NCBI GenBank assembly: GCA_028875075.1 | Contig: JAPPGF010000031.1 | Span: 51,207 to 115,206 of the forward strand | Source of the DNA: Gemmatimonadota bacterium | GTDB lineage: Bacteria; Gemmatimonadota; Gemmatimonadetes; Longimicrobiales; Gaopeijiaceae | DNA: 64,000 bases | Direction: 5' to 3' | In this document: positions 28,490 through 55,526 of the stretch, piece by piece | Position numbering within the stretch: the first letter of the stretch is position 1 | Layout of the letters: the number at the start of each line of letters is the position of its first letter | The notes under the pieces: generated by a model | Seen by the model: only the letters and a program-made list of their open reading frames with translations | Database searches by the model: none | Told to the model about the DNA's origin: nothing | Program-made: the position numbers and the translations under genes

Positions 28490-28589
28490 CAATTCAGTTC
28501 GTGGAACATCGTTAGATGCTCCAAGTCAATCTCCTAATGAACGATTCGTTCGCCGTATCCATTGACCCGATAGCATAATGAGGCAGGCT

Positions 28590-30462: not shown

Positions 30463-31350
30463 GTGCAGCAACCTCCTGACCGAAGCCAGCCGAGATCCGT
30501 CTTCCGCACCGTGTTGCGCGAGCCCACGACCCACTTCGTCGTGCTTGCGCTGATGCTGTTCCTGGCTGCGAAACTGGTCGGATCTCGGGCTGAGGTGATC
30601 GAGATCGATCGCGTCGAGATCGAGCAACGTATCGCCCGACTCGAGGCGCCCCGTGCCGGGCCGCTCACCCTCGAGCAGCGCCAGCAGGTCGAGGACGACT
30701 TCATCTATGAGCAGGTTCTCGCCCGCAACGCGCGAGCGCTGGTTCGCGAGGGCGATGCGAGGATTCACGACATCCTGGTGCAGACGATGCTGCACTACCT
30801 GCGCAGCGACGTCGTCCCGCCGCCGACCGAGACAGAGCTGCAGGCATACTACGAAGCCAACCTCACACGATATGCGCAGGCTCCAGCGGTGACCCTCGAC
30901 GAGTTCCTGCTGAGGCCGGGCGGCTCCGAGTCGGGAGAGCGTCCGGCCGCGCTCCGTGACGCTGTCTCACCCGCCGAAATCCCTTCGGACGAGCTGATCC
31001 GTCACAGGCGCCTGGCGCGGCTCGGCCTGGGCGACCTGGAGCGTCTCTTCGACGCAGCGGTTGCGCGAGCCGCCTTGGCAGCGGAAGCAGGAGAATGGGT
31101 AGGCCCCCACCGGAGCCCCGAGGGTGAGTATTGGCTCCGGGTTCAGGAGAAGTACGGCGGGGGCGAAGCACCTCCGCTGGAGGACGCGATAGAAGCCGTC
31201 CGACAGGATTGGATCGCACAACAGGAGCAGAGCCGGTTCGAACAGTACGTGATCGGGCTGACCGAGGAATACGTTGTCCGTTTCACGGACAGCCGCGGGC
31301 GCGGGGGGAGCAGCTCCCAGTCCACCGACGGCGAGGCCGTGGAGCCATGA
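30463..31350 (+). CDS. Peptidyl-prolyl cis-trans isomerase-like protein (PpiC/SurA type), membrane-anchored
   Basis: Protein of 295 residues with one N-terminal transmembrane anchor (THFVVLALMLFLAAKLVG, about residues 23-40) and an extracytoplasmic remainder. The arrangement, with a SurA-N-like helical part (EDDFIYEQVLARNARALV) and a parvulin-like C-terminal half ending in EGEYWLRVQEKYGGG, matches the PPIase/chaperone proteins commonly encoded next to HupE/UreJ permeases. The parvulin core looks divergent, so enzyme activity is uncertain. Start is a GTG at 30463 with GGAGG upstream. Its stop overlaps the next start (ATGA). Confidence 0.75.
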   Translation: MQQPPDRSQPRSVFRTVLREPTTHFVVLALMLFLAAKLVGSRAEVIEIDRVEIEQRIARLEAPRAGPLTLEQRQQVEDDFIYEQVLARNARALVREGDARIHDILVQTMLHYLRSDVVPPPTETELQAYYEANLTRYAQAPAVTLDEFLLRPGGSESGERPAALRDAVSPAEIPSDELIRHRRLARLGLGDLERLFDAAVARAALAAEAGEWVGPHRSPEGEYWLRVQEKYGGGEAPPLEDAIEAVRQDWIAQQEQSRFEQYVIGLTEEYVVRFTDSRGRGGSSSQSTDGEAVEP

Positions 31351-32363
31351 GGAAACGGGCCCCTGGACTCGCGGCCTTGGCGTGGGTGGCCGCAAACGTC
31401 CTGTCCCTGCCGCCACCGGCCAGCGCCCACGACGTCGAACTCACGTCGGTGGCCCGGATCTTCCTGGATCAGGTCGACCAGCGTCGCTATGTCCTCTCCA
31501 TCGTCGACGCCTTGATTCCTCCGCTGCAGGACTCGGAGGAAGTCCTTCCCAATGGCTGCGCGCGGCTGCCGCAGCGTGCCGGCGGACTATCCCCCAGGGG
31601 CTTCGCGTTTGAGTGCGCAGAGGAGCTGAACTTCGACGACACCATCACGCTGCCTTGGTCGTTCGAGGGCGTGGTCGTGCTTGCGCGCTGGCAGGATCAG
31701 ACCGAGGCGTCAGCCTACTTTCGGGGCGACGGAGAGAAGATACCGGTGAACCTCGGAGGTCTACGAGCCGGCGCCAGCTCCCGGGCGCGCCTCTCATCGA
31801 CCTACTTCGTCATGGGCGGTGAGCACATCCTATTCGGGATCGACCACTTGCTCTTCGTGCTGGGCCTTCTCCTCCTGGTCCGGGGATTCGGGACGCTCGT
31901 CAAGACGATCACGGCGTTCACCGTGGCCCACAGCATTACTCTCGGTGCCGCGGTCCTTGGATACGTCTCGGTCGACGGGGGAGCGGTGGAGGCGGCGATC
32001 GCCCTCTCCATCGTGCTCCTCGCGCGTGAGATCGTCATCGGTCCCGGCCGCGACCAACTCGTGTACCGTCGGCCGTGGTTGGTCGCCTTCGTCTTCGGGC
32101 TGCTCCACGGGTTGGGTTTCGCGGGCGCACTGGGCGAGATCGGGCTTCCGGGCGCGGACATCCCCTTCGCGCTTCTCTTCTTCAACGTAGGCGTGGAGGC
32201 CGGCCAGCTGCTCTTCATCGTCGTGCTAATCGCCTTGGAACGGATCTTCCGCGGCGTCGTCCGCTACCGGATACCGCGGCTTCAGCCGGCCCTCGGCTAC
32301 GTGCTCGGAAGCCTGGCTACCCTGTGGTTCCTGGAACGTCTGCCCGGGGTGTGGAGCGCTTGA
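31347..32363 (+). CDS. HupE/UreJ family membrane protein with extracytoplasmic N-terminal domain
   Basis: Protein of 338 residues. A signal peptide (LAALAWVAANVLSLPPPASA) is followed by an approximately 130-residue extracytoplasmic domain and then six or more helices of the HupE/UreJ_2 type. The metal-binding signature HxxxxxDH is visible in GGEHILFGIDHLLFVLGLLL, and HGLGFAGALGEIGLPG follows. Classical HupE/UreJ proteins supply nickel to hydrogenase or urease, neither of which is in the window. The long-form relatives with this N-terminal domain are uncharacterised. The ATG overlaps the isomerase stop, implying that the two work together. Confidence 0.85.
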   Translation: MRKRAPGLAALAWVAANVLSLPPPASAHDVELTSVARIFLDQVDQRRYVLSIVDALIPPLQDSEEVLPNGCARLPQRAGGLSPRGFAFECAEELNFDDTITLPWSFEGVVVLARWQDQTEASAYFRGDGEKIPVNLGGLRAGASSRARLSSTYFVMGGEHILFGIDHLLFVLGLLLLVRGFGTLVKTITAFTVAHSITLGAAVLGYVSVDGGAVEAAIALSIVLLAREIVIGPGRDQLVYRRPWLVAFVFGLLHGLGFAGALGEIGLPGADIPFALLFFNVGVEAGQLLFIVVLIALERIFRGVVRYRIPRLQPALGYVLGSLATLWFLERLPGVWSA

Positions 32364-34970: not shown

Positions 34971-36131
34971 CTACGACAGCATTCGCGGAACAGCCTCCGC
35001 TCCAGGGGAGCTACGTGCGTTGTGCACCATAGCGACCGTGCGATAAACGAGGTGTGCCAATTTGGAATACGGGAAATATACGAGGAGAACGAAGATGAGA
35101 ATCAGATGGATGAAATAGCTCGGATAGGCCAGCTCTCGTATATCAGCCAGTCTCAGGTACTCCGTAGTGAATCCGGTTACGGTCGTCCACAACAGAACAT
35201 GAAGAAAAAGCCAGTCGGAGTAAGTGCTCTTTCCTGCCTTTTCCTTGTCTATGATTCGCCTGTAGCTGAGCACTGCTACGGCGACAATTACCGCGATTCC
35301 GCTGACGTTTCCGAGGATTTTTATTGGGTGCCAAAAAGGCCATGGTGTCAAGTACCCGAAAGCATAGATGCCGATGCCTACAGCGGTCGTCGTCACCACG
35401 AGGCCCAGAAAACCATAGAATACCAGGAGGTGGCTCTTGTAGAGGTGCTCCTTGTGTGTTTCCCGGGCCGTGGCAGGTTCACTCGCACATTCCTTGAACT
35501 TGCGATGCTTGAGGATCGTCAGCAATGTCGGAATAAGGGGCAAGCGTCGGCGTCCACTGTCGTTTGCGTCCGAATTCATGGCGCGCCAATAACGGACACC
35601 TCCCACAGCTGCTGCGATTATGGACAAGGACAAGGCGCCAATGAACACTACTTCTATGTATACTATCGGCATGAACTTGGAATACACGATCTCGCCATCG
35701 GGGAGAGCACTCAGATGTCCCAACCATCCGATAATAAACGTGAATATCACGGCTGGGATAAGAAACAGGAGAGGCAAAAATTTTGGTTCGTTCAGTGCAC
35801 GTCCCATGAAGCGGGGAAAGGCGTAGTGTGTGATACTGAAGTCCCGGAGAGCTGCCATCACATCTGCGGGCTTCGCGCTTCTGGGACAGTACGTCGTACA
35901 TGCCCCGCACTGGTGACACAACCAAATCGACGAGTTCGACAGCGCTAGATCTCTCAGGCCCCACTGCACCCAGACCATCTCCTTGCGCGGAAACGGATTC
36001 TCCGTAGTTGCGATCGGACACACGGTCGAGCAAGTGCCACACTGATAGCAGGCGGTCAAGTCTTGAGCGCCCAACCCGAGAATCTCTCGCTTGAACCCGA
36101 GGTCAGGCTCTACGTCTAGCGTCGTTGGCAC
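34971..36131 (-). CDS. qmoC: Quinone-interacting membrane-bound oxidoreductase subunit C
   Basis: Protein of 386 residues fusing an HdrC-like ferredoxin domain with an HdrE/NarI-like membrane domain, as in QmoC. Two [4Fe-4S] sites are complete: Cys28, 31, 34, 38 (CYQCGTCSTVCP) and Cys72, 75, 78, 82 (CHQCGACTTYCP). Some six hydrophobic helices follow, with several histidines fit for heme b ligation. In sulfate reducers and sulfur oxidisers Qmo exchanges electrons between the quinone pool and APS reductase. Start is a GTG at 36131 with a strong AAGGAG site, 13 nt after qmoB. It is the last gene of the xsc-to-qmoC run. Base composition is noticeably AT-richer than the housekeeping genes. Confidence 0.93.
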   Translation of the reverse strand: MPTTLDVEPDLGFKREILGLGAQDLTACYQCGTCSTVCPIATTENPFPRKEMVWVQWGLRDLALSNSSIWLCHQCGACTTYCPRSAKPADVMAALRDFSITHYAFPRFMGRALNEPKFLPLLFLIPAVIFTFIIGWLGHLSALPDGEIVYSKFMPIVYIEVVFIGALSLSIIAAAVGGVRYWRAMNSDANDSGRRRLPLIPTLLTILKHRKFKECASEPATARETHKEHLYKSHLLVFYGFLGLVVTTTAVGIGIYAFGYLTPWPFWHPIKILGNVSGIAVIVAVAVLSYRRIIDKEKAGKSTYSDWLFLHVLLWTTVTGFTTEYLRLADIRELAYPSYFIHLILIFVLLVYFPYSKLAHLVYRTVAMVHNARSSPGAEAVPRMLS

Positions 36132-36144
36132 CGCAGTCTCCTTG

Positions 36145-38286
36145 CTAGAATCCCTTCATTGGATTCAGGCCGATCTCTTTTACCGTCTGCACGACATCGT
36201 CGATCATGGCCGGAATCTTGTCCGATTCCGAGATCGCCACCTCGGCGACCGTCACACGCTCGGACTCGAGGGCCAATCGGTCGAGGGTCTCCTTGACGTT
36301 TTGCATCCTGGTCTCGAGCAACTCGCTGCCACGGATATAGTGACACTGGTAGTCCTCTCCCGCTTTGCATCCCATCAACATCACGGCATCAAACCCACGG
36401 GAAACAGCGTCTGCTATCAAGATGCTGTTGACTGACCCGAGGCACCGCACGGGAATGACCCTGGCAGACTGCGCGTACTGTAGTCGACCGATTCCAGCCA
36501 TGTCGAGAGCCGGGTAGGCATCGTTCTCGCAGGCGAGCACGAGGATGCGCGGCCTGTCTTCGTCGTCTTCGGGCATCTCCACGGCCTTGATCATGCCCGC
36601 CAACATGTCAACCGAATAGTCGGCGAACGAGATCACCTGCACCGGACAGGCGCCCATGCAGATGCCGCAGCGCCGGCAGCGATTGGAATCGAGGACGGGG
36701 CGGCCCTTCTCACCCGTTTCCAGCGCGCCGAACGGGCACTCCTGCATGCACCGGCCGCACGAAGTGCACTTCTGCAGGAAGACGTCCGGGAAGGAAAGAT
36801 CCCCGACGCGAGGGTGCACCGCAGCCCCGGCCGAGGCCTGCTCGATGCACTGGATGGCCTTGAGCGCAGCGGCAGACCCATCCTGGGCGCTGGCCGCCAG
36901 ATCCATGGACTGACGAACGGATCCCGCAGAGTAGATCCCGGTCCGGCGTGTCTCGTACGGGAAGCAGATGAAGTGAGAGTCCGCGAATCCGAACTTCGTC
37001 GTAGGTAGTTCCTTGCCCTGCAGATAGCTCAGGCTGAGCGCACCGGACGCCGCATCGGCGGTAGCGGGGACCATGTCCTCCGACAGGACGAGGAGGTCTA
37101 GGGAGAGGCGCACCGGTCCCCCTACGACCGTGCTCTCGACCTCGAGGACAACGTCATGATCGCCGTTTTCTGTGACGCTCCGAATGTCGCCCCGCGAGAA
37201 GAGGATACCCTCGTCTTCCTGCACTCGCTTATAGAAGTACTCGTACGGACCGGGCGTCTGCATGTCTCCGTACAACACGTACACGATCGAGTCCGGGTAC
37301 TGTTCTCGGATGTAGAGCGCCTGCTTGAGCGCGACGAGACTCGAGACATTCCCGCCGTAAGGTCGGTGTCGGTCGTCGCCTTTCCCGTCACAGACGACAA
37401 CCGCCGCCCGGGCGACCGGACTCCCGTTGGAAGGCCGGACTATGGACCCCCGGGCAGCCATCGCTTCCAACTCCATGCTCGACACGACGTTGGCGTAGCG
37501 GCCTCGGCCATACGCGTCGAACGTGTCTGCGTCGGCAGGTATCCACCCGGTGGCCATGACGATGGCCCCCGCAGTGATCAGCTCGTCGGCACCGTCGCGG
37601 CGGACTGTGACCGTGAAACGGCCCGGTTGTCCGGAAGTCTCGACGACCTCGGCCTCCAGGAGCGTCCGCACGTTCGGCAGGGACTGAAGCTGTTCGATGC
37701 TGCCCGCGACATCGATGGGCGCCAGAGCACGGTAGGGGGGACGCTTGGGGAACTGCCTGTAGAGGCTCGCAGCGTAGCCACCGAGACTCGCGCCCTTCTC
37801 GACCAACACCACGTCGTATCCGGCTCGAGCCGCGTCCCTGGCGGCGGCGAGCCCGGCCGACCCACCACCCACCACGAGCACGGTCCGCTCGTGTGCCTCC
37901 GTGTACGGTGTCGGAGCCACGGCTTTCTGAGCCCGCACGATCCCCATCCGGAGATAGTCGTTCGCGATTTCCTGCGTCTCGGGATCATTCGGCGGATGAC
38001 TCCACGCCACCTGCTCGCGGATGTTGACGCGCTCGACGAACGCCGTGCCGAAACTGAAGACGTCCGCATTGACGCGATGGGAGCATGCGGCGACTACGGC
38101 GCTGTCAACTGCGCCGCTGTCGAGGTCGTCGCGGATGAGCTGAACGTCCTCCAGGCAGAAGGCAGGCGAGGTGCGGACGACCGCCGCGCCACCCTCATCG
38201 GACCCAAGCGCAACGAGCTGTTCGGCGTCCATGCACTCGCCGATGCCGCACCCGCTACAAACGTAGACGCCGATGTTCTTGTTCAT
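36145..38286 (-). CDS. qmoB: Quinone-interacting membrane-bound oxidoreductase subunit B
   Basis: Flavin iron-sulfur protein of 713 residues, HdrA-like with a C-terminal MvhD-like domain. In order: an N-terminal VYVCSGCGIGECMD segment, an FAD-binding Rossmann motif (VLVVGGGSAGLAAARDAARA, about residues 125-144), and two ferredoxin clusters (CTSCGRCMQECPFGALE and CRRCGICMGACPVQVISF, about residues 500-550). The MvhD-type domain has LVLACENDAYPALDMAG and GFDAVMLMGCKAGEDYQCHY. Length and layout match QmoB. The ATG overlaps the qmoA stop by 4 nt. It passes electrons between APS reductase, QmoA and the membrane subunit. Confidence 0.94.
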   Translation of the reverse strand: MNKNIGVYVCSGCGIGECMDAEQLVALGSDEGGAAVVRTSPAFCLEDVQLIRDDLDSGAVDSAVVAACSHRVNADVFSFGTAFVERVNIREQVAWSHPPNDPETQEIANDYLRMGIVRAQKAVAPTPYTEAHERTVLVVGGGSAGLAAARDAARAGYDVVLVEKGASLGGYAASLYRQFPKRPPYRALAPIDVAGSIEQLQSLPNVRTLLEAEVVETSGQPGRFTVTVRRDGADELITAGAIVMATGWIPADADTFDAYGRGRYANVVSSMELEAMAARGSIVRPSNGSPVARAAVVVCDGKGDDRHRPYGGNVSSLVALKQALYIREQYPDSIVYVLYGDMQTPGPYEYFYKRVQEDEGILFSRGDIRSVTENGDHDVVLEVESTVVGGPVRLSLDLLVLSEDMVPATADAASGALSLSYLQGKELPTTKFGFADSHFICFPYETRRTGIYSAGSVRQSMDLAASAQDGSAAALKAIQCIEQASAGAAVHPRVGDLSFPDVFLQKCTSCGRCMQECPFGALETGEKGRPVLDSNRCRRCGICMGACPVQVISFADYSVDMLAGMIKAVEMPEDDEDRPRILVLACENDAYPALDMAGIGRLQYAQSARVIPVRCLGSVNSILIADAVSRGFDAVMLMGCKAGEDYQCHYIRGSELLETRMQNVKETLDRLALESERVTVAEVAISESDKIPAMIDDVVQTVKEIGLNPMKGF

Positions 38287-39572
38287 CCGCGCGCCTGGTG
38301 GATCGTTTGCATCGCTTTCATGGCTGCGGCGGTGGCGTCTTGAGTCGCCGTCGCCACGTCGACCGGCCCTCGTGCGCAGCCTGCAGGGAAGATGCCGGGT
38401 GAGGATTCGTCCGGCAGGACGAACGCATCGGCGTCATAGCCGATTGTCGCATTCGGTCTCCCGTCGGACATGCTGGCCACCATACCCGTGGCCAAGACCA
38501 CCAAGTCAGCCTCGACGCTGACCTTCTCGGCGGACAGGATGTGTTCCGCCTCGACAACGAGTTTGCCAGCGCCAGGATCTTCGACGACCTTCGCCACCTT
38601 TCCCTTCACGGCCGTAATGTTCGGATCGTCCAGCACTCGCTTCGAAAAGAATCCGTACGTCCCCGGTGTCCGCAGATCGATATAGAATATGAAGACCTTC
38701 GCATTCTCGTTCGCCTCTCGTATGTAGGTCGCCTGCTTCAGCGACCCGAGGCAGCAAATACCGGAGCAGTATCCAAGATAATTCGTGTCCCGTTGCCCGG
38801 CGCACTGGACAAATACCGCCGTGTTGACAGGCTCGCCATCAGACATTCGGACGACCCTCCCTCCCGTAGGCCCGTCCGGTGCGGCAAGCCGCTCCATCAT
38901 TACATTCGTAATGACGTCGGAGTACCTGCCGAACCCCAAGTTGTCGATCCTAGCGGCATCGAAAGGCTTCCATCCCGTCGCCATGATGACGGCACCCACC
39001 TTCAATGGGAATGTCCGCGTTTCCATAGAAAGATCGATGGCTCCGTACGGGCACGCACCGACACACTTGCCGCAGTCGGTGAGTTGGCAGACGGAATCGT
39101 CGATCGCGTACTTCCTCGGGAAAGCCATCGCATGGGAAAGATAGATGGCCTTGGTTGTGTCCATGCCAAAATTGAACGTGTTCGGACGATCTACCGGACA
39201 GACTTCTACGCACTTGTTGCAGCCCGTACACCGGTCATTAACATAGCGCGGATTCTGCTTGATCGTAACGTCGAAGTCTCCAGGTACACCCGATATGTTC
39301 TCGACTTCCGCGAGCGTGTAGACGTGAATACGACGATTCCCCCGCATACGCTGGAAGTTGATCTCGAGGCCACAATAGGGCGGGCAAAGCTTGGGGAAGT
39401 ACTTGCTGAGCTGTGCGACACGCCCACCCAGCGAAGCCTCCTTCTCAACGATGAATACTTCATATCCGGACTCTGCAGCCTCGACGGCGGCTGTGATACC
39501 CGCGATGCCGCCACCCACGATGAGAATGCTCCTGTGGGTGGATGAACCGGTTTCCTTGATCTCTTCATTCAT
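38283..39572 (-). CDS. qmoA: Quinone-interacting membrane-bound oxidoreductase subunit A
   Basis: Soluble HdrA-like flavoprotein of 429 residues. The FAD motif ILIVGGGIAGITAAVEAAES lies at about residues 16-35, and ferredoxin-type clusters follow in CTGCNKCVEVCPVDRP and CQLTDCGKCVGACPYGAIDL. The segment PKLCPPYCGLEINFQRM is characteristic of Hdr/Qmo A proteins. ATG 39572 begins MNEEIKETG; a TTG eight codons earlier is less likely. It lies 34 nt after aprA and is coupled to qmoB by a 4-nt overlap. Together with QmoB and QmoC it should link APS reductase to menaquinone or ubiquinone. Confidence 0.94.
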   Translation of the reverse strand: MNEEIKETGSSTHRSILIVGGGIAGITAAVEAAESGYEVFIVEKEASLGGRVAQLSKYFPKLCPPYCGLEINFQRMRGNRRIHVYTLAEVENISGVPGDFDVTIKQNPRYVNDRCTGCNKCVEVCPVDRPNTFNFGMDTTKAIYLSHAMAFPRKYAIDDSVCQLTDCGKCVGACPYGAIDLSMETRTFPLKVGAVIMATGWKPFDAARIDNLGFGRYSDVITNVMMERLAAPDGPTGGRVVRMSDGEPVNTAVFVQCAGQRDTNYLGYCSGICCLGSLKQATYIREANENAKVFIFYIDLRTPGTYGFFSKRVLDDPNITAVKGKVAKVVEDPGAGKLVVEAEHILSAEKVSVEADLVVLATGMVASMSDGRPNATIGYDADAFVLPDESSPGIFPAGCARGPVDVATATQDATAAAMKAMQTIHQARG

Positions 39573-39606
39573 GCCCAAGTCATTCCTCGCCGGCAAGCCA
39601 GGTACA

Positions 39607-41478
39607 TCACGGGACCACTTGTATGTACGGCTTCTTGCTCATCGTCCACTCGTTCTGTTCCGCGTCATACCGTGAGTTCGCAAAACACTTCCAATTCTCC
39701 TCGTCCAGTTCCGGATAATCGCCACGGTAGTAGTATCCGGGCCAACGCGTCTCCTGTCGGTACAGGAGATGTTGCATGTGCGTCTGAGCACACCAGAACC
39801 GATCCCATACCTCCCAGCACCGGAGCAGGTCGTGGAGATTCTCGGCCGCCATCTTGTGGAGGTCCTGCCTGAACAACTCCATCAGCTCAAGGCCCCTCAG
39901 CAGCGTCGGCTCATTCGTGATGAAGAAAGCGCTCTGTCCGGCCGCGTACTCATCCATGATCTTCTGAAGCCGGTGCAGCGCTTGCTTCGGGGCCACGTAG
40001 TTGGGATTGACGTCTCCCGTCGAGGTTCCCTTCGCGTCATCGACCACGGAGAAGGGGCGCCACAGCTCGTTCTTGATGTCCTCCACCCGATCCGAGTCGA
40101 TATTGGGATCGTCCGGGTTATCGTACACGTAGGCCACGGCGGCCTTGCCTGCAGACCGACCCTCCGTATAGGACCCGGAAGAAAACTTGTGCGCCGACCC
40201 ACTGACACCGTCGCCAGCCGCAAACAATCCCCGAACTGTAGTCATGCGGTTGTAACCCCAGAAATACTCGCTGGGCGCGATGTCTTCAGGACCGCTCACC
40301 CACGCACCGGTAGCTGACGCATGTGATCCCATCAGGTACGGCTCGGTCAACACTACCTCTGAAGGCGTCTTCGCCGGGTCAATGTTCTCCGACGCCCACA
40401 GGAGGGCCTGCGACATCGTCATGTCCAGGAAGTCCTCCCACGCATCACTCTCGATCTCCCGCACTTTCTTCTTGTCGTGCTGGACATCGGCAAACATCTT
40501 CTGAAGCGCCTCGTCCGTTCTCAAGTAATGCGGACCCTTACCCTCCATCATGTCGCGGAGCATCTGGTGGTTTCGAAGAGGGGTGGGAATCGGCTTGCCT
40601 GACCCGTAGGGCTCCCATTCCTTCAAGAGATCGGCCCACTTGCTCTCGACCAGTTCGCCGTACGCGTTCTTCAACACCGCCTTGAAGAGAAGAAACCACA
40701 TCCCGACAGGCCCATAACCGTCCTTGAAACGCGCGACGACAAGCCGGTGCTCGAACTGGCTCATCTCGGCGCCTGCCATGATCATGAGCTTGTAAGCGGA
40801 ACCCGTGTTCCAGGGTGCATACCAGATTCTGCCGAGCCCTTCCCCGATCGCGTGCGGTCGAAACACTCCGGTAGCGCCACCTGCGGCCGAGATCACGGTC
40901 TTCGCCTTGAAGACGTAGATCTTGGGTTCGCGCACGCTGAAACCGACTGCTCCCGCAATCCGTCCCGGATCCTTCGCATCGTTCAACAGGTGGGACACGA
41001 AGATCCGCTCATAGATATTGTCCTCGCCAACCGCCTTCTTGGCTGCTTCAGCGACGATCGGCTTGTACGACTCGCCGTGGATCATTACCTGCCAACGGCC
41101 CTCGCGCTTGTAACGCCCGTCGGCCTCCTTGAAAAACGGCAGACCCCAGTCCTCGAACATGTGAACGGTGGAGTCCACGTTTCGGGCGATGTCGTACACC
41201 AAGTCCTCACGACTGAGACCCATGAGGTCCTGGCGCACGTAGCGAACGAAATCCTCGGGCTGGTTCTCGCCCCACTTCATCCCCATGTAACAGTTGATCG
41301 CCGAGAGACCCATGGCCACGGCACCGCTCCTCTCTATGGCGCCTTTCTCGACGAGCACAACCTTGAGGTTCTTCGGCTTGGCCCAGTACGCCGCCTCGTA
41401 CGCGGCTCCACAGCCAGCCATGCCACCACCAAGTATCAACACATCGCATTCGACAACTTCGACTTCGGGACGCGTCAT
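39607..41478 (-). CDS. aprA: Adenylylsulfate reductase alpha subunit
   Basis: FAD-binding catalytic subunit of 623 residues interconverting sulfite plus AMP and APS. The N-terminal FAD motif VLILGGGMAGCGAAYEAAYW is at about residues 13-32. GAVAMGLSAINCYMG, the active-site arginine block ARFKDGYGPVGMWFLLFK and the histidine block TEPYLMGSHASATGAWVSGP are all present, as in biochemically known AprA. The C-terminus is complete. Start ATG 41478 has an excellent GGAGGAAGG site, 37 nt after aprB. Direction of the reaction cannot be read from the gene alone, but there is no dsrAB in the window and xsc lies in the same run, which favours sulfite oxidation. Confidence 0.97.
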   Translation of the reverse strand: MTRPEVEVVECDVLILGGGMAGCGAAYEAAYWAKPKNLKVVLVEKGAIERSGAVAMGLSAINCYMGMKWGENQPEDFVRYVRQDLMGLSREDLVYDIARNVDSTVHMFEDWGLPFFKEADGRYKREGRWQVMIHGESYKPIVAEAAKKAVGEDNIYERIFVSHLLNDAKDPGRIAGAVGFSVREPKIYVFKAKTVISAAGGATGVFRPHAIGEGLGRIWYAPWNTGSAYKLMIMAGAEMSQFEHRLVVARFKDGYGPVGMWFLLFKAVLKNAYGELVESKWADLLKEWEPYGSGKPIPTPLRNHQMLRDMMEGKGPHYLRTDEALQKMFADVQHDKKKVREIESDAWEDFLDMTMSQALLWASENIDPAKTPSEVVLTEPYLMGSHASATGAWVSGPEDIAPSEYFWGYNRMTTVRGLFAAGDGVSGSAHKFSSGSYTEGRSAGKAAVAYVYDNPDDPNIDSDRVEDIKNELWRPFSVVDDAKGTSTGDVNPNYVAPKQALHRLQKIMDEYAAGQSAFFITNEPTLLRGLELMELFRQDLHKMAAENLHDLLRCWEVWDRFWCAQTHMQHLLYRQETRWPGYYYRGDYPELDEENWKCFANSRYDAEQNEWTMSKKPYIQVVP

Positions 41479-41515
41479 TTATCCTTCCTCCACGGCATGC
41501 TCACGTTGGGTTTCT

Positions 41516-41965
41516 TCAGGCACTCGGAATCGTCGGAAGATCGGGGACACCAAGAAACTGTTCCTGACCGCAGAGACCGCCAGTCTTCAGCTCCTCGGGG
41601 TCCGGTTCTTCAAACCCGCTGAAGGGCTCGATCGAACCCCACGATGTCGTGCGAATGGGATACTTGAAACGCTTCATCTGACCGTTACGAAACTTCACCG
41701 TCCACATGATCGAGTCTGTCCCACGCAACGGTGTCAGGCTTGCACCCATCGGCACTACATCACCATAGCCTCGCATTGCGATAGCTGATTGCGGGCACGT
41801 CTTTACGCATGCATAGCATTCCCAGCAGAGGTCTGGTTCGATATTGAACGACTTTCCGATAGACTTGTCCAGGTGCATGATGTCAGACGGACAGATGTAC
41901 TGACAGGCTGGCTTGTCCAACGCCTTACAACCATCGCACTTCTCTGGATTCACGTACGTAGGCAT
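41516..41965 (-). CDS. aprB: Adenylylsulfate reductase beta subunit
   Basis: Iron-sulfur subunit of 149 residues carrying electrons to or from the AprA flavin. Two [4Fe-4S] clusters are ligated by Cys10, 13, 21, 25 (CDGCKALDKPACQYIC) and Cys47, 50, 53, 57 (CWECYACVKTCP). The C-terminal tail with YPIRTTSWGSIEPFSGF, which wraps around AprA in known structures, is present. ATG 41965 is preceded by AGGGGAG. It follows sat by 27 nt and precedes aprA by 37 nt. Confidence 0.96.
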   Translation of the reverse strand: MPTYVNPEKCDGCKALDKPACQYICPSDIMHLDKSIGKSFNIEPDLCWECYACVKTCPQSAIAMRGYGDVVPMGASLTPLRGTDSIMWTVKFRNGQMKRFKYPIRTTSWGSIEPFSGFEEPDPEELKTGGLCGQEQFLGVPDLPTIPSA

Positions 41966-41992
41966 GTGTTCTCCCCTTGGGTGCAGCCGCGA

Positions 41993-43204
41993 TTATCCTC
42001 GTGCATACCTATGGAGGGCAACTTCGACCTGATCGTCCGTTGTCGCATAATGATCCCTCAGGATAGCGAGAACCTCAGGTCGACTAAAGTGTTCAGGAAT
42101 CTCGCCGCCTTCCGAAAGCGTCTTCCTCAGCATCGTCCCGCTCACGATCAATCGATCTTCTGCACCGTGAGGGCAGGTCCTCCCGGATGCCATCCCGTCG
42201 CAGCGATGGCAATAGAACGTCCAGTCAACCTTCAGTGGCTTGATTTCCAGGGCACCGTCGGGAATCTCGTCAAAAACGGCTTGCGAGTCGAACGGGCCGT
42301 AGTAGTCACCCACGCCGGCATGGTCTCGCCCGATGATCAGGTGACTGCAACCGTAATTCTGCCTGAACACGGCGTGCAGCAGCGCCTCACGCGGGCCCGC
42401 ATAGCGCATCTCCATCGGGTACCCGGCCTGAATACACGTTCCCTTGACAAAGTATCGCTCTACCAGTTCGTGAACCGCCCTCACCCTCACGTCGGCGGGA
42501 ATGTCTCCAGGTTTGAGCTTACCCAACAGTTGATGAATCAAGACTCCGTCACAGACCTCGATGGCAACCTTGGCCAGGTACTCGTGCGACCGATGCATGG
42601 GGTTGCGGAGCTGCAACGCCGCAACAGTGCTCCAGCCCTTCTCCATGAACGTCCGCCGCGTCTCCGCGGGACGGAGGTAGATGTCCCCGTACTGCTGAGG
42701 AAAGCCGGCTTCGCTGAAGACACGTACTGGACCGGCCAAGTTTACGTCGCCCTGCGCCATCACCTTCGCCACGCCGGGGTGCTCGGCGTCGGTCGTTCCG
42801 AAGACCTCCGTGCACTCGTGGAGCTTGTCGATCGTGTATTTCTCCTCGACCGTGATGGTCCCCAGGATCTGTTCGTCTTCCGCGTCCCTCAGAGCGACCG
42901 TCTGCCCCTCCTTCAAGCTCTCCGCGTTCTCGACCGTGGCGGAGAGGGTGATGGGAATCGGCCAGAAGACCCCGTCGCTCGTCGTACATTCGCGGCACAC
43001 AGAGTCCCAGTCCGATCGTCCCATGAAACCGGCGAGCGGCGTAAATGCGCCGATGCCGAGCATGATGAGGTCCGACGTCTCGCGAGACGTCATGCGGATC
43101 GAAGGCAGGGTCGAAGCGCGGGCAGCTTCCTCTCGGAGTTCCTCACCGTGAAGAAGCAGTGGCCGAAGAGACTTTTCCTTCCCGTGAGGGTTCGCTAGCG
43201 CCAT
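41993..43204 (-). CDS. sat: Sulfate adenylyltransferase (ATP sulfurylase, single-chain)
   Basis: Protein of 403 residues of the homo-oligomeric ATP sulfurylase family used in dissimilatory sulfur metabolism. The nucleotide-binding motif [11 protein letters not shown] is at residues 198-208 and [16 protein letters not shown] follows near 295. The Cys/His patch [18 protein letters not shown] near 335 is usual in this group. In the oxidative direction it turns APS and pyrophosphate into sulfate and ATP. ATG 43204 lies 50 nt after the MFS gene and 27 nt before aprB. Confidence 0.96.
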
Positions 43205-43254
43205 CAGGGCCTATCCCGATCCGATCCTGAGCAGGGACTGATATCCGACGGCAA

Positions 43255-44640
43255 CTATCGGGAGATCTCTTCGAGCGTCCGGCCCTTGGTCTCGGTGCCC
43301 AGAACGGCCACGGCCAACACACCCACCAGTCCCATGACACCGACGAAGCTGTACGCGGCCACGACCCCGCTTCCGAGCAGGAGGAACGGGAAGTACGCGG
43401 GTGCGATCACACCCGCGATCAGACGCCCTACGGCCTCCGTGGCGCCGACCCCCGTGCCGCGGACACGCGTGGGATAGTTCTCCGCCACGTAGACCTTGAC
43501 AGCCGGGTTGGCGCCGATGCCGAAGAAGGACATGATGACGCCGACGATCAAGACCGAAGTCGCGGTCTGCAGGAATCCGAAGAGCAAGGCGCAAACCACC
43601 GCAATGAGGGTGAAACTGATGATCACGGGCTTGCGCCCCCACGTCTCGACAAGCCAGGCCTCAAGGAACTTACCCGGTATCGACGCTCCAACGATGATCG
43701 CCGTGATGACGAAGGCCGACGTGAGCGTGAAGCCCATTTCCACGACCACCGTGGGCATGAAGACCTGGATCGCGTAGAACATGAAGAACGTGCAGCCCAG
43801 AGCGAGCCAGCACATGATCGTGCGCTTCCGGTACTGGAGCTGCCAGAGCGTGCTGACGGGCACGCGCTCCTTGCTCACGGTCACCGGCGTAATCTCGCCC
43901 ACTGGGGGCAGCGGCCGCCCCGATTGCCTCTCGACTTCCGACTCGATGGCGCGCATGACGCGCTCGGCCTCGTCGTAGCGCCCCTTGACCTCGTACCAGC
44001 GCGGCGACTCCGGCAGGTAGCGGGCAAGGACGAACACATAGAGCAGAGGCACCCCGCCCAGGACGAACAGCACGCGCCAGCCGATGTCGATGCTCATGTT
44101 CGGGATGATGAGCGCGCCAAGCAGGGGAGAGATGAAGTAGCCCGCCGACAGCAGCGAGTCCATAATCCCGGTGGCTCTCCCCCGCCAACGCGAAGAAAGC
44201 AACTCGCTCATCATGGAGTAGGGCAACGGGAACATCGCGCCCATTCCGAGCCCCGCCAGGAAACGCAGGGCAACCAGCCAGCCGATGCTCGGAGCGAAGG
44301 CGCACGCGAGCGTCAGAAGGGTGGATACGGTCATGCCGCCGATCAGGACGCGCTTACGACCGATGCGATCTGCCAGGACACCGGAAGGGACGACGCCGAT
44401 GATGATCCCGATGGTCGAAGCCACTGCCAGCTGGCTCACCTGCGCCGCGCTGAGCTCCCACAGTCCCCTGACCGTGGGAAGGATGACCCCCACGAGCCCG
44501 ATGTCGAATGCCTCGACGAGCCAGGCCAGGCTACACAGCGTGAGCATCTTGTACGCCCACCAAGTCATTGGCAGCCGCTCCAGCCGCTCTCCGATCCCCA
44601 AAGGCGGTGAGCCTACGGCCTGTTCCTCATGCTCAGCCAC
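43255..44640 (-). CDS. MFS transporter in the sulfonate/sulfite-oxidation operon
   Basis: Twelve-helix major facilitator of 461 residues. The loop 2-3 signature GVLADRIGRKRVLIGG is present, as is the central PESPRWYEVKGRYDEAE segment typical of metabolite/sugar:proton symporters. The C-terminal signature is GTETKGRTLEEISR. Start is a GTG at 44640 with GGGAGG upstream. It lies 33 nt after the TRAP binding-protein gene and 50 nt before sat. MFS carriers are known for isethionate uptake in other bacteria, so import of a C2 sulfonate is the natural guess, but the sequence does not prove the substrate; sulfate or acetate efflux is also possible. Confidence 0.88.
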   Translation of the reverse strand: MAEHEEQAVGSPPLGIGERLERLPMTWWAYKMLTLCSLAWLVEAFDIGLVGVILPTVRGLWELSAAQVSQLAVASTIGIIIGVVPSGVLADRIGRKRVLIGGMTVSTLLTLACAFAPSIGWLVALRFLAGLGMGAMFPLPYSMMSELLSSRWRGRATGIMDSLLSAGYFISPLLGALIIPNMSIDIGWRVLFVLGGVPLLYVFVLARYLPESPRWYEVKGRYDEAERVMRAIESEVERQSGRPLPPVGEITPVTVSKERVPVSTLWQLQYRKRTIMCWLALGCTFFMFYAIQVFMPTVVVEMGFTLTSAFVITAIIVGASIPGKFLEAWLVETWGRKPVIISFTLIAVVCALLFGFLQTATSVLIVGVIMSFFGIGANPAVKVYVAENYPTRVRGTGVGATEAVGRLIAGVIAPAYFPFLLLGSGVVAAYSFVGVMGLVGVLAVAVLGTETKGRTLEEISR

Positions 44641-44673
44641 AGTGCCTCCCTGGCGCTGGTGTCGTGGGTGCCC

Positions 44674-45816
44674 TCAGGGGCTATCGACCGTGTACCTGCC
44701 CTGCGTGTCAGCCGCCTGCTTCAGCCGAGCGAACGCGTCGAGCGATCCCGCCAAGTCGGACTTGAAGCGGTCCCATTCAGGTCGCTGCTCGCCGGTCGCT
44801 TCGACCCACGCCGCCATCTCGGCCGCAGTCGGCTTGTAGAACTCGACTCCTCTGGCTCGTAGCTGATCCGCCGCGTACTCTCGACATCCGGGGAGCGCGG
44901 CCAGGCTCGCCGCCATCGCTCGCTCGCTGGCCTGCTCGAGCGCTTCGCTCAACTCGGGGGCGAGCCCCTCGAACCAGGTCATGTTGCAGACATATACCTG
45001 GGCGTCGGGCACGTGCGAAATCAGGGACACTGAGCCGAGGACGTCTTGGAATCCGGCCGTGTAGAGGGTCGTTCCGGCCGGGTCGAGCGCGTCCGCCTCG
45101 CCCTCGTTCATCGCCTCGAGGGTCCGCCCCCACGGGATGACTACCGGCTCCGCACCGACCAAGCGACAGAACTCCGTCAACACGGCTGAGCCGGGGACTC
45201 GCACTCTGAGGCCGCGCATGTCCTCGGGCGTGCGCACGGTGACGTCCACGCCACGACGGACCGCGATGGTGCGAGGGTCCTCCGTGTAGTAGAACAGCAC
45301 CTTCAGGTCACGCTCGGCGAGGGGCTGCGCGACCGCGTCCGACCACGCCGGTGACGTCACCAGGTTCGCGTAACGCTGATTGTCACCGCACCAGTACGGG
45401 ATGTTGACGAGGTCGATCGCGGGCACGTACGCAGCCAGGTTGGCGAGCGAGACCTGGACCGCGTGCACAGAGCCCGACAGCAGCTGCTCGACCAGCGCGC
45501 CGCCCACGCCGAGCTCTCCGCCCGGCCGCAGATCGACTTTGATGGCGCCGTCACTCGCATCCTCGATGTAGTCCTTGAACGCTGTCTGAACGACCGGAAC
45601 GCTGACTTCCTGCTCCAGCGTATATTCCGTCGCCAGGACCATCGCCTCCGCCGACCGACGTCCACGCGCACCGCGGGCCGTGGCTGGGGCCGCGCTGGCA
45701 CCGGCCCGCCGAGAGGAGAAACGGCTCAAGGCCACCGCCCCCCCGAACCTAGAGGCCAGATCCAAGAACCGCCGTCGGTTCGGACTCGGATCAGGAGGCA
45801 TGAGCAGCCGCGACAT
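44674..45816 (-). CDS. TRAP transporter solute-binding protein (DctP type), no permease partners nearby
   Basis: Periplasmic binding protein of 380 residues. The N-terminus carries a twin-arginine-like signal (NRRRFLDLASRFGGAVALSR) suggesting Tat export. The DctP fold shows LPGG-like PGGELGVGGALVEQLLSGS, then GLRVRVPGSAVLTEFCRLVG containing the arginine that normally binds the ligand's anionic group. No DctQ or DctM membrane subunits are encoded in the window, so it either uses distant permease genes or is an orphan. TRAP systems for taurine (TauKLM) and isethionate (IseKLM) are known. ATG 45816 overlaps the xsc end by 26 nt; ATG 45801 is an alternative. Confidence 0.85.
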   Translation of the reverse strand: MSRLLMPPDPSPNRRRFLDLASRFGGAVALSRFSSRRAGASAAPATARGARGRRSAEAMVLATEYTLEQEVSVPVVQTAFKDYIEDASDGAIKVDLRPGGELGVGGALVEQLLSGSVHAVQVSLANLAAYVPAIDLVNIPYWCGDNQRYANLVTSPAWSDAVAQPLAERDLKVLFYYTEDPRTIAVRRGVDVTVRTPEDMRGLRVRVPGSAVLTEFCRLVGAEPVVIPWGRTLEAMNEGEADALDPAGTTLYTAGFQDVLGSVSLISHVPDAQVYVCNMTWFEGLAPELSEALEQASERAMAASLAALPGCREYAADQLRARGVEFYKPTAAEMAAWVEATGEQRPEWDRFKSDLAGSLDAFARLKQAADTQGRYTVDSP

Positions 45817-47572
45817 CCGCCTGGCGGCTCTCAGCGGGTGTTGAGCGTTGCGTGCCGGTCAGTCGCTCGTATTTCTCGAGGAACCGGACCGGCTGCCGGA
45901 AGGCATCCCGGCGGAACGGCTCGGCAAGTTCGCCCGTGAGACGGACGTCCAGCACGGTCGGTTTCCCGGATGCGACAGCCTCACGGAGGGCGTCGCCGAC
46001 CTGGTCACGGTGACTGACGACGCTTGCCTGGGCCCCCATCGCGCGCGCCACGTCCGCGAAGTTCGGATTGGCCAGGTTGGTGCCCACAAAGCGGCTGTTG
46101 AAGTAGTCGATCTGATTCTTCTTCTCCGCCCCCCACTGCAGGTTGTTGAAGACCACGGCAACGACCGGGATGTTCTCACGCACGCAGGTCATGGTCTCGG
46201 CCATGCTCATCCCCCACGCGCCATCTCCTACGTAGGCTATCGCCGGTCGCTCGGGAGTTGCGACCTTGGCGCCCATCGCAGCGGGGTAGGCGTATCCGCA
46301 GTTCCCCCAGCTCATCGCGGCGAGGAACGTCAGGGGTTCCTCGAACTCCAAGTAGCTGTTCGCCACTGAGCAGACGTTGCCGATGTCGGTCGAAACAACC
46401 GCATCCTTGGGCCTGGCCTTTGCGAGCTCGGCCAGCGCCTGCCGGGGGGCCATGCGACCCTCTTCCGAAGGAGCGCTGGAGGTCCAATCGCCCAGCTCCT
46501 CTGCCCATGCTTTCTTGGCCGCCGCGATCTCCTGCAAGCGGTCGCCGCGCCCCCGGACGAGCTTGATCTCTCGCAGTCGCTCCAAGATCGCCTCCGCCGC
46601 CTGCCGGGCGTCACCGCAGATTCCGAGGGTGACTTTCTTCGTGAGCCCCAGCACGCGGCTGTCTGTGTCGATCTGGACGATACGCGCCTCCGACGGCCAA
46701 TAGTCCAGACCGTACTGGGGAAGCGTCCCGAACGGACCGAGCCGCGTGCCGAGCGCCAGCACCACATCGGCTCTAGCAATCAGCCGCATAGCCGCCTTCG
46801 ATCCCTGGTAGCCGAGCGGCCCGCAAAACTGCTCGTGACTGGCGGGAAAAGAATCGTTGTGGAGGTAGCTGACGGCCACGGGACAACGGAGATACTCTGC
46901 GAGCGCTTTCGCCTGCTCGACGCCGTCCGCCATCGCCACACCGCCGCCGACCAACATCACGGGGAATTCCGCCTCCGCGAGAATGGCCGCCGCCTCCTGC
47001 AAGGCGGCGGGGTCCCCGGCCCCGTGACCGATCGTCTGCGGGTCAGGAATCTCGACTTCGATGTCGCCGTAGAAGTAGTCGCGCGGAACGTTGATCTGGA
47101 CAGGCCCTCGTTCGAACAGCGCGATCTTCAAGGCCCGGTCGGTCAACTCGGCCACGCGGCTCGGGCTGTTAACGTGCACCTGATACTTCGTGATTTTCGA
47201 GAAGATCGGCATCTGCTCGGTTTCCTGGAAACCGCCCAGGCCCACGCCCAAGCTTCCGGCTTCGGGCGTGATCGCGACGACCGGTGAATGGGCCCAGTAG
47301 GCGGCTGCGATCGAGGTCACGAAGTTCGTGATCCCCGGGCCGTTCTGTCCGGTGCAGACGCCATGGCGGTTCGTCACACGCGCGTAGCCGTCGGCCATGT
47401 GGCCCGCGTTCTGTTCGTGCGCCACCGAGACAAAGCGGATACCCGCCGAGGGGAACAAGTCCAGCGCATCCATGAAGGCCGAACCGATGATGCCGAAGAC
47501 GTGCTTGACGCCATGCGCCACCAGGGTCTCGACAAAAGCTTCGCTCGGGGTTGCCCGAATCCTATTGCCCAT
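45791..47572 (-). CDS. xsc: Sulfoacetaldehyde acetyltransferase
   Basis: Thiamine-diphosphate enzyme of 593 residues converting sulfoacetaldehyde plus phosphate to acetyl phosphate and sulfite, the desulfonating step of taurine, isethionate and sulfoacetate degradation. The N-terminus MGNRIRATPSEAFVETLVAH and the blocks GIIGSAFMDALDLFPSAGIR, HEQNAGHMADGYARV and GQNGPGITNFVTSIAAAYWA are Xsc-specific rather than acetolactate-synthase-like. The ThDP motif (GDGAWGMSMAETM ... VVFNN, about residues 449-476) is intact. ATG 47572 has GGGAG 7 nt upstream. It is the first gene of the run extending to qmoC, preceded by the palindrome at 47598-47612. Confidence 0.95.
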   Translation of the reverse strand: MGNRIRATPSEAFVETLVAHGVKHVFGIIGSAFMDALDLFPSAGIRFVSVAHEQNAGHMADGYARVTNRHGVCTGQNGPGITNFVTSIAAAYWAHSPVVAITPEAGSLGVGLGGFQETEQMPIFSKITKYQVHVNSPSRVAELTDRALKIALFERGPVQINVPRDYFYGDIEVEIPDPQTIGHGAGDPAALQEAAAILAEAEFPVMLVGGGVAMADGVEQAKALAEYLRCPVAVSYLHNDSFPASHEQFCGPLGYQGSKAAMRLIARADVVLALGTRLGPFGTLPQYGLDYWPSEARIVQIDTDSRVLGLTKKVTLGICGDARQAAEAILERLREIKLVRGRGDRLQEIAAAKKAWAEELGDWTSSAPSEEGRMAPRQALAELAKARPKDAVVSTDIGNVCSVANSYLEFEEPLTFLAAMSWGNCGYAYPAAMGAKVATPERPAIAYVGDGAWGMSMAETMTCVRENIPVVAVVFNNLQWGAEKKNQIDYFNSRFVGTNLANPNFADVARAMGAQASVVSHRDQVGDALREAVASGKPTVLDVRLTGELAEPFRRDAFRQPVRFLEKYERLTGTQRSTPAESRQADVAAAHAS

Positions 47573-48078: not shown

Positions 48079-48144
48079 ATAGATTGGTGTGGACTCTGTA
48101 GATTAGGGCCAGTGAAGGGGTACCTGTACCTGGGGGATCAGTCC

Positions 48145-54539: not shown

Positions 54540-55526
54540 ATGTCATTCCGCTCAGACCTTCGGACTCGATCTCGAAACCGTCCTCGCCGGGTCACCTTCC
54601 CCGAGGCGACCGATCCACGTACCGCTGAAGCGGTTGCGGAGATTGTCCGAGACCGGCTGCTCCATCCACTGCTCGTCGGCGCTCCAGATGACGTATTTGC
54701 CGCACTGTCCAGTGCTGGCGGCAACCCGGACGCCGTCGCGGTAGTCGATCCAGAGGCGAGCGCCGAGTCTCATGCACGGATTCTTCTGGACCTTCGCCGT
54801 GAGCGCGGCATGAGCGAGGATGAGGCGAACGCGCGCGCGCGCGAGCCGCTTGTCCGCGCGGCGATGATGGTACGGCGGGGAGAGGCCGACGGTGCCGTCG
54901 CGGGTGCCGTACACACGACGGCTGAGGTCCTACGCGCGGCGCTTTGGTGCATTGGCGCCGCGCCCGGGGTGAGTACGGTGTCCTCGTCGCTCTACATGGC
55001 AGTTAGCGACTTCAGGGGCCAGGGAAGCGAGGTGCTCACATTCGCCGACGCCGGGGTAGTACCCGAACCCGACGCACGGCAACTTGCCGATATCGCCCTA
55101 GCGGCCGCGCGGGCTCGGGTGGACGTCGTCGGTGATTCTCCACAAGTTGCGTTCCTTTCCTACTCCACCCGCGGCAGCGCCGCCGGCCCCGCGGTCGAAC
55201 GCGCCCGCGAAGCGGTGGAGCTCTTCCGTCGCCTCGCGCCGGCCGTGCCATGTGACGGCGAGCTCCAGGCCGACGCAGCGCTGATACCCTCCGTGGCTGA
55301 GCGCAAAGCCCCCTCTTCTCCAGTGGCCGGCGGGGCGAACGTGCTGGTCTTTCCCGACCTGGGTGCAGCCAACATCGCCTACAAACTGGTTCAACGGCTA
55401 GCGAACGCGACCGCCGTCGGGCCAATCCTGCAGGGCCTCTCCCGACCGATGAACGACCTCTCCCGAGGTGCTACTCCAGACGATATCGTCGATGCTGCGT
55501 GCGTCACGTCGCTGATGGCCGAATAG
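54540..55526 (+). CDS. pta: Phosphate acetyltransferase
   Basis: Enzyme of 328 residues exchanging acetyl phosphate and acetyl-CoA (PTA_PTB family, short form without the DRTGG regulatory domain). Visible blocks are RVTFPEATDPRTAEAVAEIV, AGAVHTTAEVLRAALWCIG, VAFLSYSTRGSAAGPAVERA and the C-terminal NVLVFPDLGAANIAYKLVQR with GPILQGLSRPMNDLSRG. In sulfonate degraders pta follows xsc and channels acetyl phosphate into central metabolism. Here it is on the opposite strand, 7 kb from xsc. It is convergent with the TauE-like gene. Confidence 0.93.
   Translation: MSFRSDLRTRSRNRPRRVTFPEATDPRTAEAVAEIVRDRLLHPLLVGAPDDVFAALSSAGGNPDAVAVVDPEASAESHARILLDLRRERGMSEDEANARAREPLVRAAMMVRRGEADGAVAGAVHTTAEVLRAALWCIGAAPGVSTVSSSLYMAVSDFRGQGSEVLTFADAGVVPEPDARQLADIALAAARARVDVVGDSPQVAFLSYSTRGSAAGPAVERAREAVELFRRLAPAVPCDGELQADAALIPSVAERKAPSSPVAGGANVLVFPDLGAANIAYKLVQRLANATAVGPILQGLSRPMNDLSRGATPDDIVDAACVTSLMAE

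Follow-up and report, generated by a model that had tools for sequence, protein, structure and literature searches.

The closest system yet described to the one treated here, a run of nine genes in a Gemmatimonadota genome that places xsc (sulfoacetaldehyde acetyltransferase) beside the sulfite-oxidation genes sat-aprBA-qmoABC, is that of 'Candidatus Taurinisymbion ianthellae'. This symbiont encodes taurine import (TauABC), Tpa, Xsc, phosphate acetyltransferase, AprAB, Sat, QmoAB and HdrBC; AprA, QmoB, HdrB, Tpa and Xsc, but not Sat, were detected in its metaproteome, and sulfate release from taurine was measured in its sponge host (PMC10356861). By its authors' account few organisms use this route, for which they name SAR11, symbionts of sponges and one of Olavius; SAR11 and the Olavius gamma-3 symbiont are taurine degraders with a two-step sulfite oxidation dependent on adenosine monophosphate (AMP) (as cited in PMC10356861). 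Sulfite oxidation by AprBA-QmoABC and Sat has also been proposed for peatland Acidobacteria (PMC6018796), and a lake study in which genes for sulfonate degradation occurred in the same waters as genes for sulfur oxidation suggested that organic sulfur supports sulfur oxidizers (PMC7887784). In Bohai sediment, heterotrophic Sat-AprAB sulfite oxidation is reported as common and 18 Gemmatimonadota bins carried the sulfite oxidase SOUX (PMC12345210); a Gemmatimonadetes bin with dsrAB is also on record (PMC5573963).

The gene run lies on the minus strand at 34971-47572 of a stretch of 64,000 nucleotides (nt), here called the window (contig JAPPGF010000031.1, assembly GCA_028875075.1), and reads xsc-dctP-MFS-sat-aprB-aprA-qmoA-qmoB-qmoC, where dctP encodes a solute-binding protein of the tripartite ATP-independent periplasmic (TRAP) type and MFS stands for a major facilitator superfamily transporter. 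A preliminary description of this DNA, made without database searches, had named these nine genes, and all nine are present as intact open reading frames whose identities are borne out by profile hidden Markov models (Table 1). From xsc to qmoC the spacings are -26, 33, 50, 27, 37, 10, -4 and 13 nt, with a maximum of 50 nt as had been stated, while the overlaps, described as several, number two. QmoA and QmoB are so named because they are HdrA-like, for their gene position and the adjoining qmoC and, in QmoB, for its FlpD domain; the start of qmoA was called at TTG 39596, and the ATG at 39572, 24 nt downstream, is equally likely. Catalytic and cluster motifs are intact, as the same description had it: the Fe-S cysteine motifs are kept, as are the AHEQ and GDG...NN (thiamine-diphosphate) motifs of Xsc and, in Sat (best PDB matches 1jhd and 4dnx), an 11-residue motif and GRDHAGVG. 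AprA of the window has the identical residue at Asn74, Glu141, Trp234, Arg265 and His398, which we take to be the active-site residues of the Archaeoglobus enzyme; four of these five positions do not vary across the 89 rows of the alignment, and 78 of these rows share Glu141. The gene set of AMP-dependent sulfite oxidation, sat, aprB and aprA with an electron-transfer partner, is complete in this run.

Lying upstream of the apr module, xsc is probably co-transcribed with sat-aprBA-qmoABC. A break between the MFS gene and sat, which had been named as a possible flaw in the coupling, was looked for in DNA signals: between 34600 and 48200, promoter-like sites numbered 3 against a shuffle mean of 2.5, and terminator-like sites 7 against a shuffle mean of 8.1. 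Because neither count stands above the shuffles, there is no sign of a break at this junction, yet the signals give no evidence for a single transcript either.

We consider it fairly probable that xsc and this complete AMP-dependent sulfite-oxidation module act together, and that a second xsc was here joined to an island shared within the genus. Xsc would convert sulfoacetaldehyde and phosphate into acetyl phosphate and cytoplasmic sulfite, and a stand-alone phosphate acetyltransferase (Pta) would turn acetyl phosphate into acetyl-CoA. AprBA would then join sulfite to AMP, forming adenosine 5'-phosphosulfate (APS) and sending two electrons through QmoABC to the quinone pool, and Sat would make sulfate and adenosine triphosphate (ATP) from APS and pyrophosphate; sulfate or surplus sulfite may exit through nearby proteins of the PF03601 and TauE exporter families. 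The function most likely is the one given in the preliminary description, although what a single draft genome shows here is a known pathway in varied form and not a new metabolism. Only tentatively do we advance the fuller claim, that a single transcription unit gives a gemmatimonadotal heterotroph acetyl-CoA carbon, quinol electrons and Sat-derived ATP from a C2 sulfonate, and that this is the first operon physically joining desulfonation to APS-pathway oxidation with a true oxidative QmoABC, by linkage of a second, divergent xsc to a pre-existing island.

The source genome is a 2.6-Mb draft of 42 contigs, 91.6% complete, and its placement in the Gemmatimonadota, the phylum to which the host had been likened, is well supported. 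Among 395 Gemmatimonadota genomes aprA was found in six (E 1e-100) and xsc in 25 (E 1e-180; 24 over the model cut-off). The two occur together only in the source genome and in UBA2988 of the same genus, a pair that is not independent; the taxonomic spread of xsc near aprA, raised earlier as a check on the coupling, thus comes to co-occurrence in these two and physical joining in the source genome only. The remaining four aprA-bearing genomes (G187, G196, G322 and G198) carry dsrA over the cut-off and have no xsc at E 1e-100. Our genus sample comprised the source genome and two others, of which only UBA2988 has aprA.

The oxidative direction of the APS pathway is favoured by two results, the lack of a dsrA match in the source genome and the position of its AprA outside the clade of the dsrA-bearing Gemmatimonadota. 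With the dsrA model, the draft gave no match at E 0.001; in a control, 8 of 14 genomes, E. coli included, gave matches below the cut-off, which are taken to be their assimilatory sulfite reductases. UBA2988 gave a single weak match of 20 bits, and Rokubacteria GWC2_70_16 has dsrA-like genes below the cut-off. The gene set of dissimilatory sulfate reduction, dsrAB with sat-apr-qmo, was not found in the source genome, so that a reductive Sat-Apr pathway would, within the limits of the draft, stop at sulfite without a reductase to feed.

AprA was placed in a quick tree of 89 rows, 85 of them different (the window, L006-L014 and L016-L094; L003-L005 and L015 were omitted as duplicates and no row was lost to the length limit), in which the four dsrA-bearing Gemmatimonadota stand twice each, as search locus and as fetched stretch. 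The window belongs to a clade of 10 rows, with a Shimodaira-Hasegawa-like approximate likelihood ratio test (SH-aLRT) value of 100, that also holds UBA2988 (82), Nitrospinota UBA8248 (97), two Rokubacteria (97) and five other genomes, which to judge from record names are acid-site and CSP1-4 organisms; this clade is joined to five alphaproteobacterial, gammaproteobacterial and archaeal rows (95). A separate clade of 62 rows (100) takes in the four dsrA-bearing Gemmatimonadota together with named sulfate reducers such as Desulfosporosinus and Desulfotruncus. What had been said of this genome, that it has no dsr genes, agrees with the dsrA search of the draft; whether AprA sides with sulfur oxidizers or reducers is answered by a place outside the sulfate-reducer clade, with a weak deepest split (78), and the combination thought fatal to the coupling, dsrAB with a reductive-type AprA in one genome, was not found in the draft.

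A qmoA homologue follows aprA in all nine other members of the 10-row clade. Both of the loci scanned among its five other genomes (L020 and L021) have HdrB-like genes near apr, below NCBIfam cut-offs; L020 also has an HdrA-like gene, again below its cut-off, and L021 a 35% match to qmoB. These Hdr-like genes presumably belong to sulfur-oxidizing sHdr clusters. Outside the genus the nearest sat-aprBA-qmoABC is that of UBA8248 (AprA 80%), which suggests transfer between phyla; the gene before it is LysR-like by its N-terminus. Viral contigs with AprA included no relative. In Peptococcaceae BRH_c4b (L088) the normal set is accompanied, at a distance of a few kb, by another, divergent aprA-aprB-qmoA-like set (37-39%).

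The preliminary description had treated Xsc as the desulfonation enzyme, and the predicted product of the operon copy is indeed assigned to Xsc by the equivalog cut-off, its motifs and its grouping with annotated Xsc; it is, however, one of two xsc genes in the genome. The other, resident copy (C15:143296-145026) scores 925 bits against 859 for the operon copy, both over the cut-off, and is 92% identical to the Xsc of UBA2988, to which the operon Xsc is 46% identical. The best plasmid matches of the operon Xsc, at 58.9-61.5%, come from Rhodococcus, Cupriavidus, Caballeronia, Paraburkholderia and Burkholderia, the annotated Xsc of Rhodococcus (61.5%) and Caballeronia (58.9%) among them. We built two trees, the first holding the window row twice (L120) and the second omitting L120, L136, L137 and L119. 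In the first, a set of nine rows at 99/96 comprises the window twice, five plasmid Xsc (four of them annotated xsc), the resident copy and the UBA2988 Xsc. The resident copies of the source genome and UBA2988 go with Cereibacter and Azospirillum (100/100). A second group (100/100) unites 23 other Gemmatimonadota rows, and the operon Xsc lies outside both and is therefore a separate lineage. Its branch falls between those of the plasmid Xsc and the 23-row group, and the branching order, read unrooted, is the same with long rows removed. Identity suggests a possible origin in Burkholderiales or Rhodococcus, but the operon Xsc may also be an old relative of the 23-row group.

The surroundings of the resident xsc (C15:134000-153500) include a TauE-family gene, a class II aldolase and two HAD hydrolases, together with an MFS gene closest to phosphate-ester carriers, below cut-offs; these genes may form a second sulfonate cluster or a phosphonate cluster. 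A plasmid of the haloarchaeon Halomarina carries an Xsc-like gene 50% identical to the window Xsc, on a long separate branch.

UBA2988 has the module without xsc. Within about 22 kb it carries a TonB receptor, a SusD-like and a CarboxypepD_reg gene, sat-aprB-aprA-qmoA-qmoB-qmoC, PpiC-like and HupE-like genes, dctP and MFS, all with window homologues at 41-83% identity; the TonB-dependent receptors are 82% identical over 993 amino acids (L010:5627-8635), and the DctP homologue (71%) stands near apr with the MFS homologue (81%) beside it. To judge from these homologues, sat-aprBA-qmoABC with dctP-MFS is an island common to two species of the genus. Since dctP-MFS stands near apr in UBA2988 without xsc, the transporters go with apr and not with xsc. 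The divergent second xsc would either have been added to this island in the source genome or have been lost in UBA2988. In the five UBA2988 stretches searched there is no homologue of three plus-strand genes of the window (48112-54275), of its PF03601 gene or of a DUF5916 gene; the first of the three, which lie between xsc and pta, has a DUF1592/1588/1585/1595/1587 set.

Several observations weigh against joint action of xsc and the module. UBA2988 has its sole xsc on contig C14 and its aprA on contig C22, so that the coupling is not a fixed unit; a fixed genus-level operon was rejected on this ground, and of the one continuous coupled unit described earlier, the adjoining of nine genes in the source genome stands while a constant linkage does not. 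In the remaining genome of the genus (G398, 73% complete) neither aprA nor xsc was found at E 1e-100. None of 80 AprA loci, the best 80 of at least 585 candidates, has xsc beside apr at E 1e-10 (the upstream flank reaches 6.2 kb in 51 of the 80, and both flanks reach 8 kb in 33; one of the 80, L015, is UBA2988 itself). Nor was xsc found over the cut-off in any of the eight genomes behind the closest AprA loci, one of which (G395) has two thiamine pyrophosphate enzyme matches well below the xsc cut-off. The operon Xsc is flagged in both trees as a long branch whose place is unsure, the deepest split of the quick AprA tree reaches an SH-aLRT of only 78, and absences from the source genome are provisional because it is an incomplete draft. 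Finally, a SoxC-type molybdenum enzyme is encoded over the cut-off in the source genome (C21:46662-47156) and in UBA2988 (C23), where a cytochrome c gene overlaps the end of the SoxC-like gene.

Some of these results would suit a module for general sulfite oxidation or detoxification, serving inorganic sulfur or several sources, with xsc as a passenger or as one input. As none of the eight genomes has xsc over the cut-off, the sulfite that the apr module handles elsewhere comes from other sources; in UBA2988 it is not joined to xsc, and the HdrB-like genes near apr at the two scanned loci, although below cut-offs, fit such a role. On the other hand, SoxB was found neither in the source genome nor in UBA2988, dsrA was not found in the source genome (PDO, SQR and sHdr were not searched for), and xsc heads the gene run there with pta 7 kb away. 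We judge this explanation unlikely, if one to be taken seriously.

We regard it as decidedly improbable that the two halves are unrelated transcription units brought together by rearrangement, the sulfite from Xsc being exported or oxidized by the SoxC-like enzyme and dctP-MFS serving some other substrate. In its favour, UBA2988 has dctP-MFS without xsc, and the G+C content differs between the halves: 59.1% in sat-qmoC (34971-43204) against 65.5% in xsc-MFS and 65.6% in the remaining window, a value as low as that of sat-qmoC occurring in 6 of 203 overlapping windows of equal length from stretches of the same genome. Both genomes, moreover, have the SoxC-like gene, which in UBA2988 adjoins the cytochrome c gene, and such a pair could be a periplasmic sulfite dehydrogenase offering alternative sulfite oxidation. 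Against it stand the short gaps (33 and 50 nt), terminator-like sites no more numerous than chance would give, a nearby pta and the fact that the sulfite made by Xsc is the substrate of AprBA. A Sox thiosulfate system was rejected, SoxB being found in neither of the two genomes (SoxXYZA was not searched for) while the SoxC-like gene is present; N-termini in the two SoxC stretches, which were not family-scanned, revealed no other sox genes. Last, although QmoABC with a true QmoC is the arrangement of sulfate reducers and the four other aprA-bearing Gemmatimonadota also carry dsrA, a sat-apr-qmo run reductively from sulfate to sulfite is very nearly untenable and was rejected, since the dsrA model matched no sulfite reductase in the source genome and AprA of this genome falls outside the clade of those four.

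For joint action of xsc and the module, further genes absent from the preliminary description are relevant: the stand-alone pta, TauE-family and PF03601 genes of the window and a Tpa candidate elsewhere in the genome. Pta passes NF007233 (322.8 against a cut-off of 310), just misses TIGR00651 (306.1 against 311.2) and is 41% identical to the Pta adjoining Caballeronia xsc, and with it the genome holds both Xsc and Pta, as taurine dissimilation requires. A conserved TauE was rejected: the window and UBA2988 proteins, 27% identical over 71 amino acids (E 0.039), are not orthologues. The PF03601 protein, a distant relative of that of Cereibacter (about 28% identical, E 3e-4 to 4e-5), may export sulfate.

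The Tpa candidate (L170), a class III aminotransferase on another contig, is 52.6-54.0% identical to four tpa-annotated matches among the 25 listed of 33, the other listed matches having generic or no names. It passes a generic aminotransferase model only (NF005812, 498.1 against a cut-off of 488) and has as its neighbour, in the same orientation, the gene of an AgcS amino acid carrier. Through this candidate, sulfoacetaldehyde would most likely come from taurine. UBA2988 shows no counterpart of L170, the four class III aminotransferases found there being only 27-31% identical to it. Another class III aminotransferase match in the source genome (C15:51331-52020) has internal TGA and TAG codons and is a broken gene or an assembly error. 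A search for an IseJ-like isethionate dehydrogenase with the GMC oxidoreductase family PF00732 gave one weak match of 35 bits in the source genome and none in UBA2988. An isethionate importer was rejected: the MFS protein is only 23% identical to the MFS near Rhodococcus xsc and gave no match at E 1e-3 to the one near Caballeronia xsc, and DctP is 23% identical to Cereibacter DctP; no substrate was assigned. DctP, whose N-terminal RRRFL is twin-arginine-like, has neither DctQ nor DctM beside it, as a TRAP transporter would need; the gene run holds no DctM, and two DctM genes lie at other places in the genome.

We also compared xsc loci from 11 of the 25 Gemmatimonadota genomes with xsc, 12 further loci of 9 to 19 kb in all, of which some have short flanks. 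None shows sat, apr or qmo; two have pta, and one has GMC dehydrogenase and IclR genes like the Caballeronia cluster. In Rhodococcus and Caballeronia plasmids pta adjoins xsc, and in Cereibacter pRSKD131A a putative sulfate exporter (PF03601, 214.7 bits) and a phosphate acyltransferase follow it. On Azospirillum p4 a molybdopterin oxidoreductase, a ferredoxin and a DmsC-like anchor precede xsc with one small gene between; this set is probably SoeABC, and would be a parallel joining of xsc with sulfite oxidation.

Table 1. Features of the window, with the model scores or homologues that support each name.
Feature	Position	Strand	Support and remarks
xsc (copy 2), sulfoacetaldehyde acetyltransferase, 593 aa	45791..47572	-	TIGR03457 858.7 bits, cut-off 676.4
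DctP, TRAP-type solute-binding protein	44674..45816	-	PF03480; NF037995 102.2, cut-off 50
MFS transporter, aromatic-acid/H+ symport-like branch	43255..44640	-	PF07690; TIGR00895 is the best of the NCBIfam models, none of which is over its cut-off
sat, ATP sulfurylase	41993..43204	-	NF003166 506.4, cut-off 387; TIGR00339 over cut-off
aprB, APS reductase beta, two 4Fe-4S motifs	41516..41965	-	TIGR02060 199.8, cut-off 135.65; PF12139
aprA, APS reductase alpha	39607..41478	-	TIGR02061 958.5, cut-off 641.75
qmoA, HdrA-like flavoprotein	38283..39596	-	no listed NCBIfam model over cut-off
qmoB, HdrA-like flavoprotein, C-terminal FlpD domain	36145..38286	-	PF02662 130.8 bits; no listed NCBIfam model over cut-off
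qmoC, 4Fe-4S and membrane cytochrome-b-like subunit	34971..36131	-	NF038018 405, cut-off 300
pta, stand-alone phosphate acetyltransferase	54540..55526	+	PF01515 332.3 bits; 7 kb from xsc, next to TauE-family gene
TauE/SafE-family anion exporter	55633..56421	-	PF01925 127.5 bits
PF03601 (YeiH) family membrane protein	28578..30005	+	PF03601 157.7 bits; no NCBIfam family
PpiC-like and HupE/UreJ-like pair	30511..32363	+	41% and 61%, beside dctP-MFS in UBA2988
CarboxypepD_reg/Plug protein beside TonB receptor	56687..57448	-	70% homologue in UBA2988
SusD-like gene	57659..58972	-	named by position only, no Pfam match; 81% homologue adjoins UBA2988 TonB receptor
TonB-dependent receptor (SusC-like)	58975..61953	-	PF00593, PF07715, PF13715; conserved upstream of sat in UBA2988

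If the joint action proposed here is real, one more phylum gains energy from the oxidation of sulfonates, and two metabolisms are tied together by gene order, which makes their co-regulation directly testable. The organism would also serve as a natural test for electron flow from sulfite to quinone, without DsrAB, through a complete QmoABC, a complex known best from sulfate reducers. A further warning is that metagenome bins should not be assigned to sulfate reduction on the strength of aprA or qmoC, both kinds occurring within our sample of the phylum.

We found no report of xsc joined to apr genes in the open-licence literature of PubMed Central (PMC), which is no proof of its being unpublished. 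As far as that literature reaches, the metabolism is already known and what is new is the physical joining in a gemmatimonadotal genome with a true QmoC; of the unusual xsc-APS combination claimed in the preliminary description, the joining remains unusual while the combination of pathways had been published (PMC10356861). Like the source genome, 'Ca. Taurinisymbion' has Xsc, AprAB, Sat and QmoAB and takes sulfite to sulfate with ATP formation, but it is a gammaproteobacterial sponge symbiont with hdrBC in place of qmoC, whereas the source organism belongs to the Gemmatimonadota and has a true qmoC and a single gene run; sulfite dehydrogenases are given as not detected in the symbiont (PMC10356861), while the source genome has the SoxC-like gene. 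Most SAR11 lack ATP sulfurylase according to the same paper (PMC10356861), in contrast to the source genome with its sat. The account of the peatland Acidobacteria reports xsc as sought and absent, includes DsrAB in the proposed route and derives the sulfite from sulfide (PMC6018796), and Taurinivorans muris shares the Tpa-Xsc route from taurine to sulfite but puts the sulfite to the opposite use, reducing it by DsrAB (PMC10507020). UBA2988, Nitrospinota UBA8248 and the two Rokubacteria have the same sat-aprBA-qmoABC order, with AprA 74-82% identical, but do not have xsc in their run. On Azospirillum p4 and Cereibacter pRSKD131A, xsc stands beside genes for sulfite or sulfate disposal just as it does here, with a SoeABC-like enzyme or an exporter in the place that the APS pathway takes in the window.

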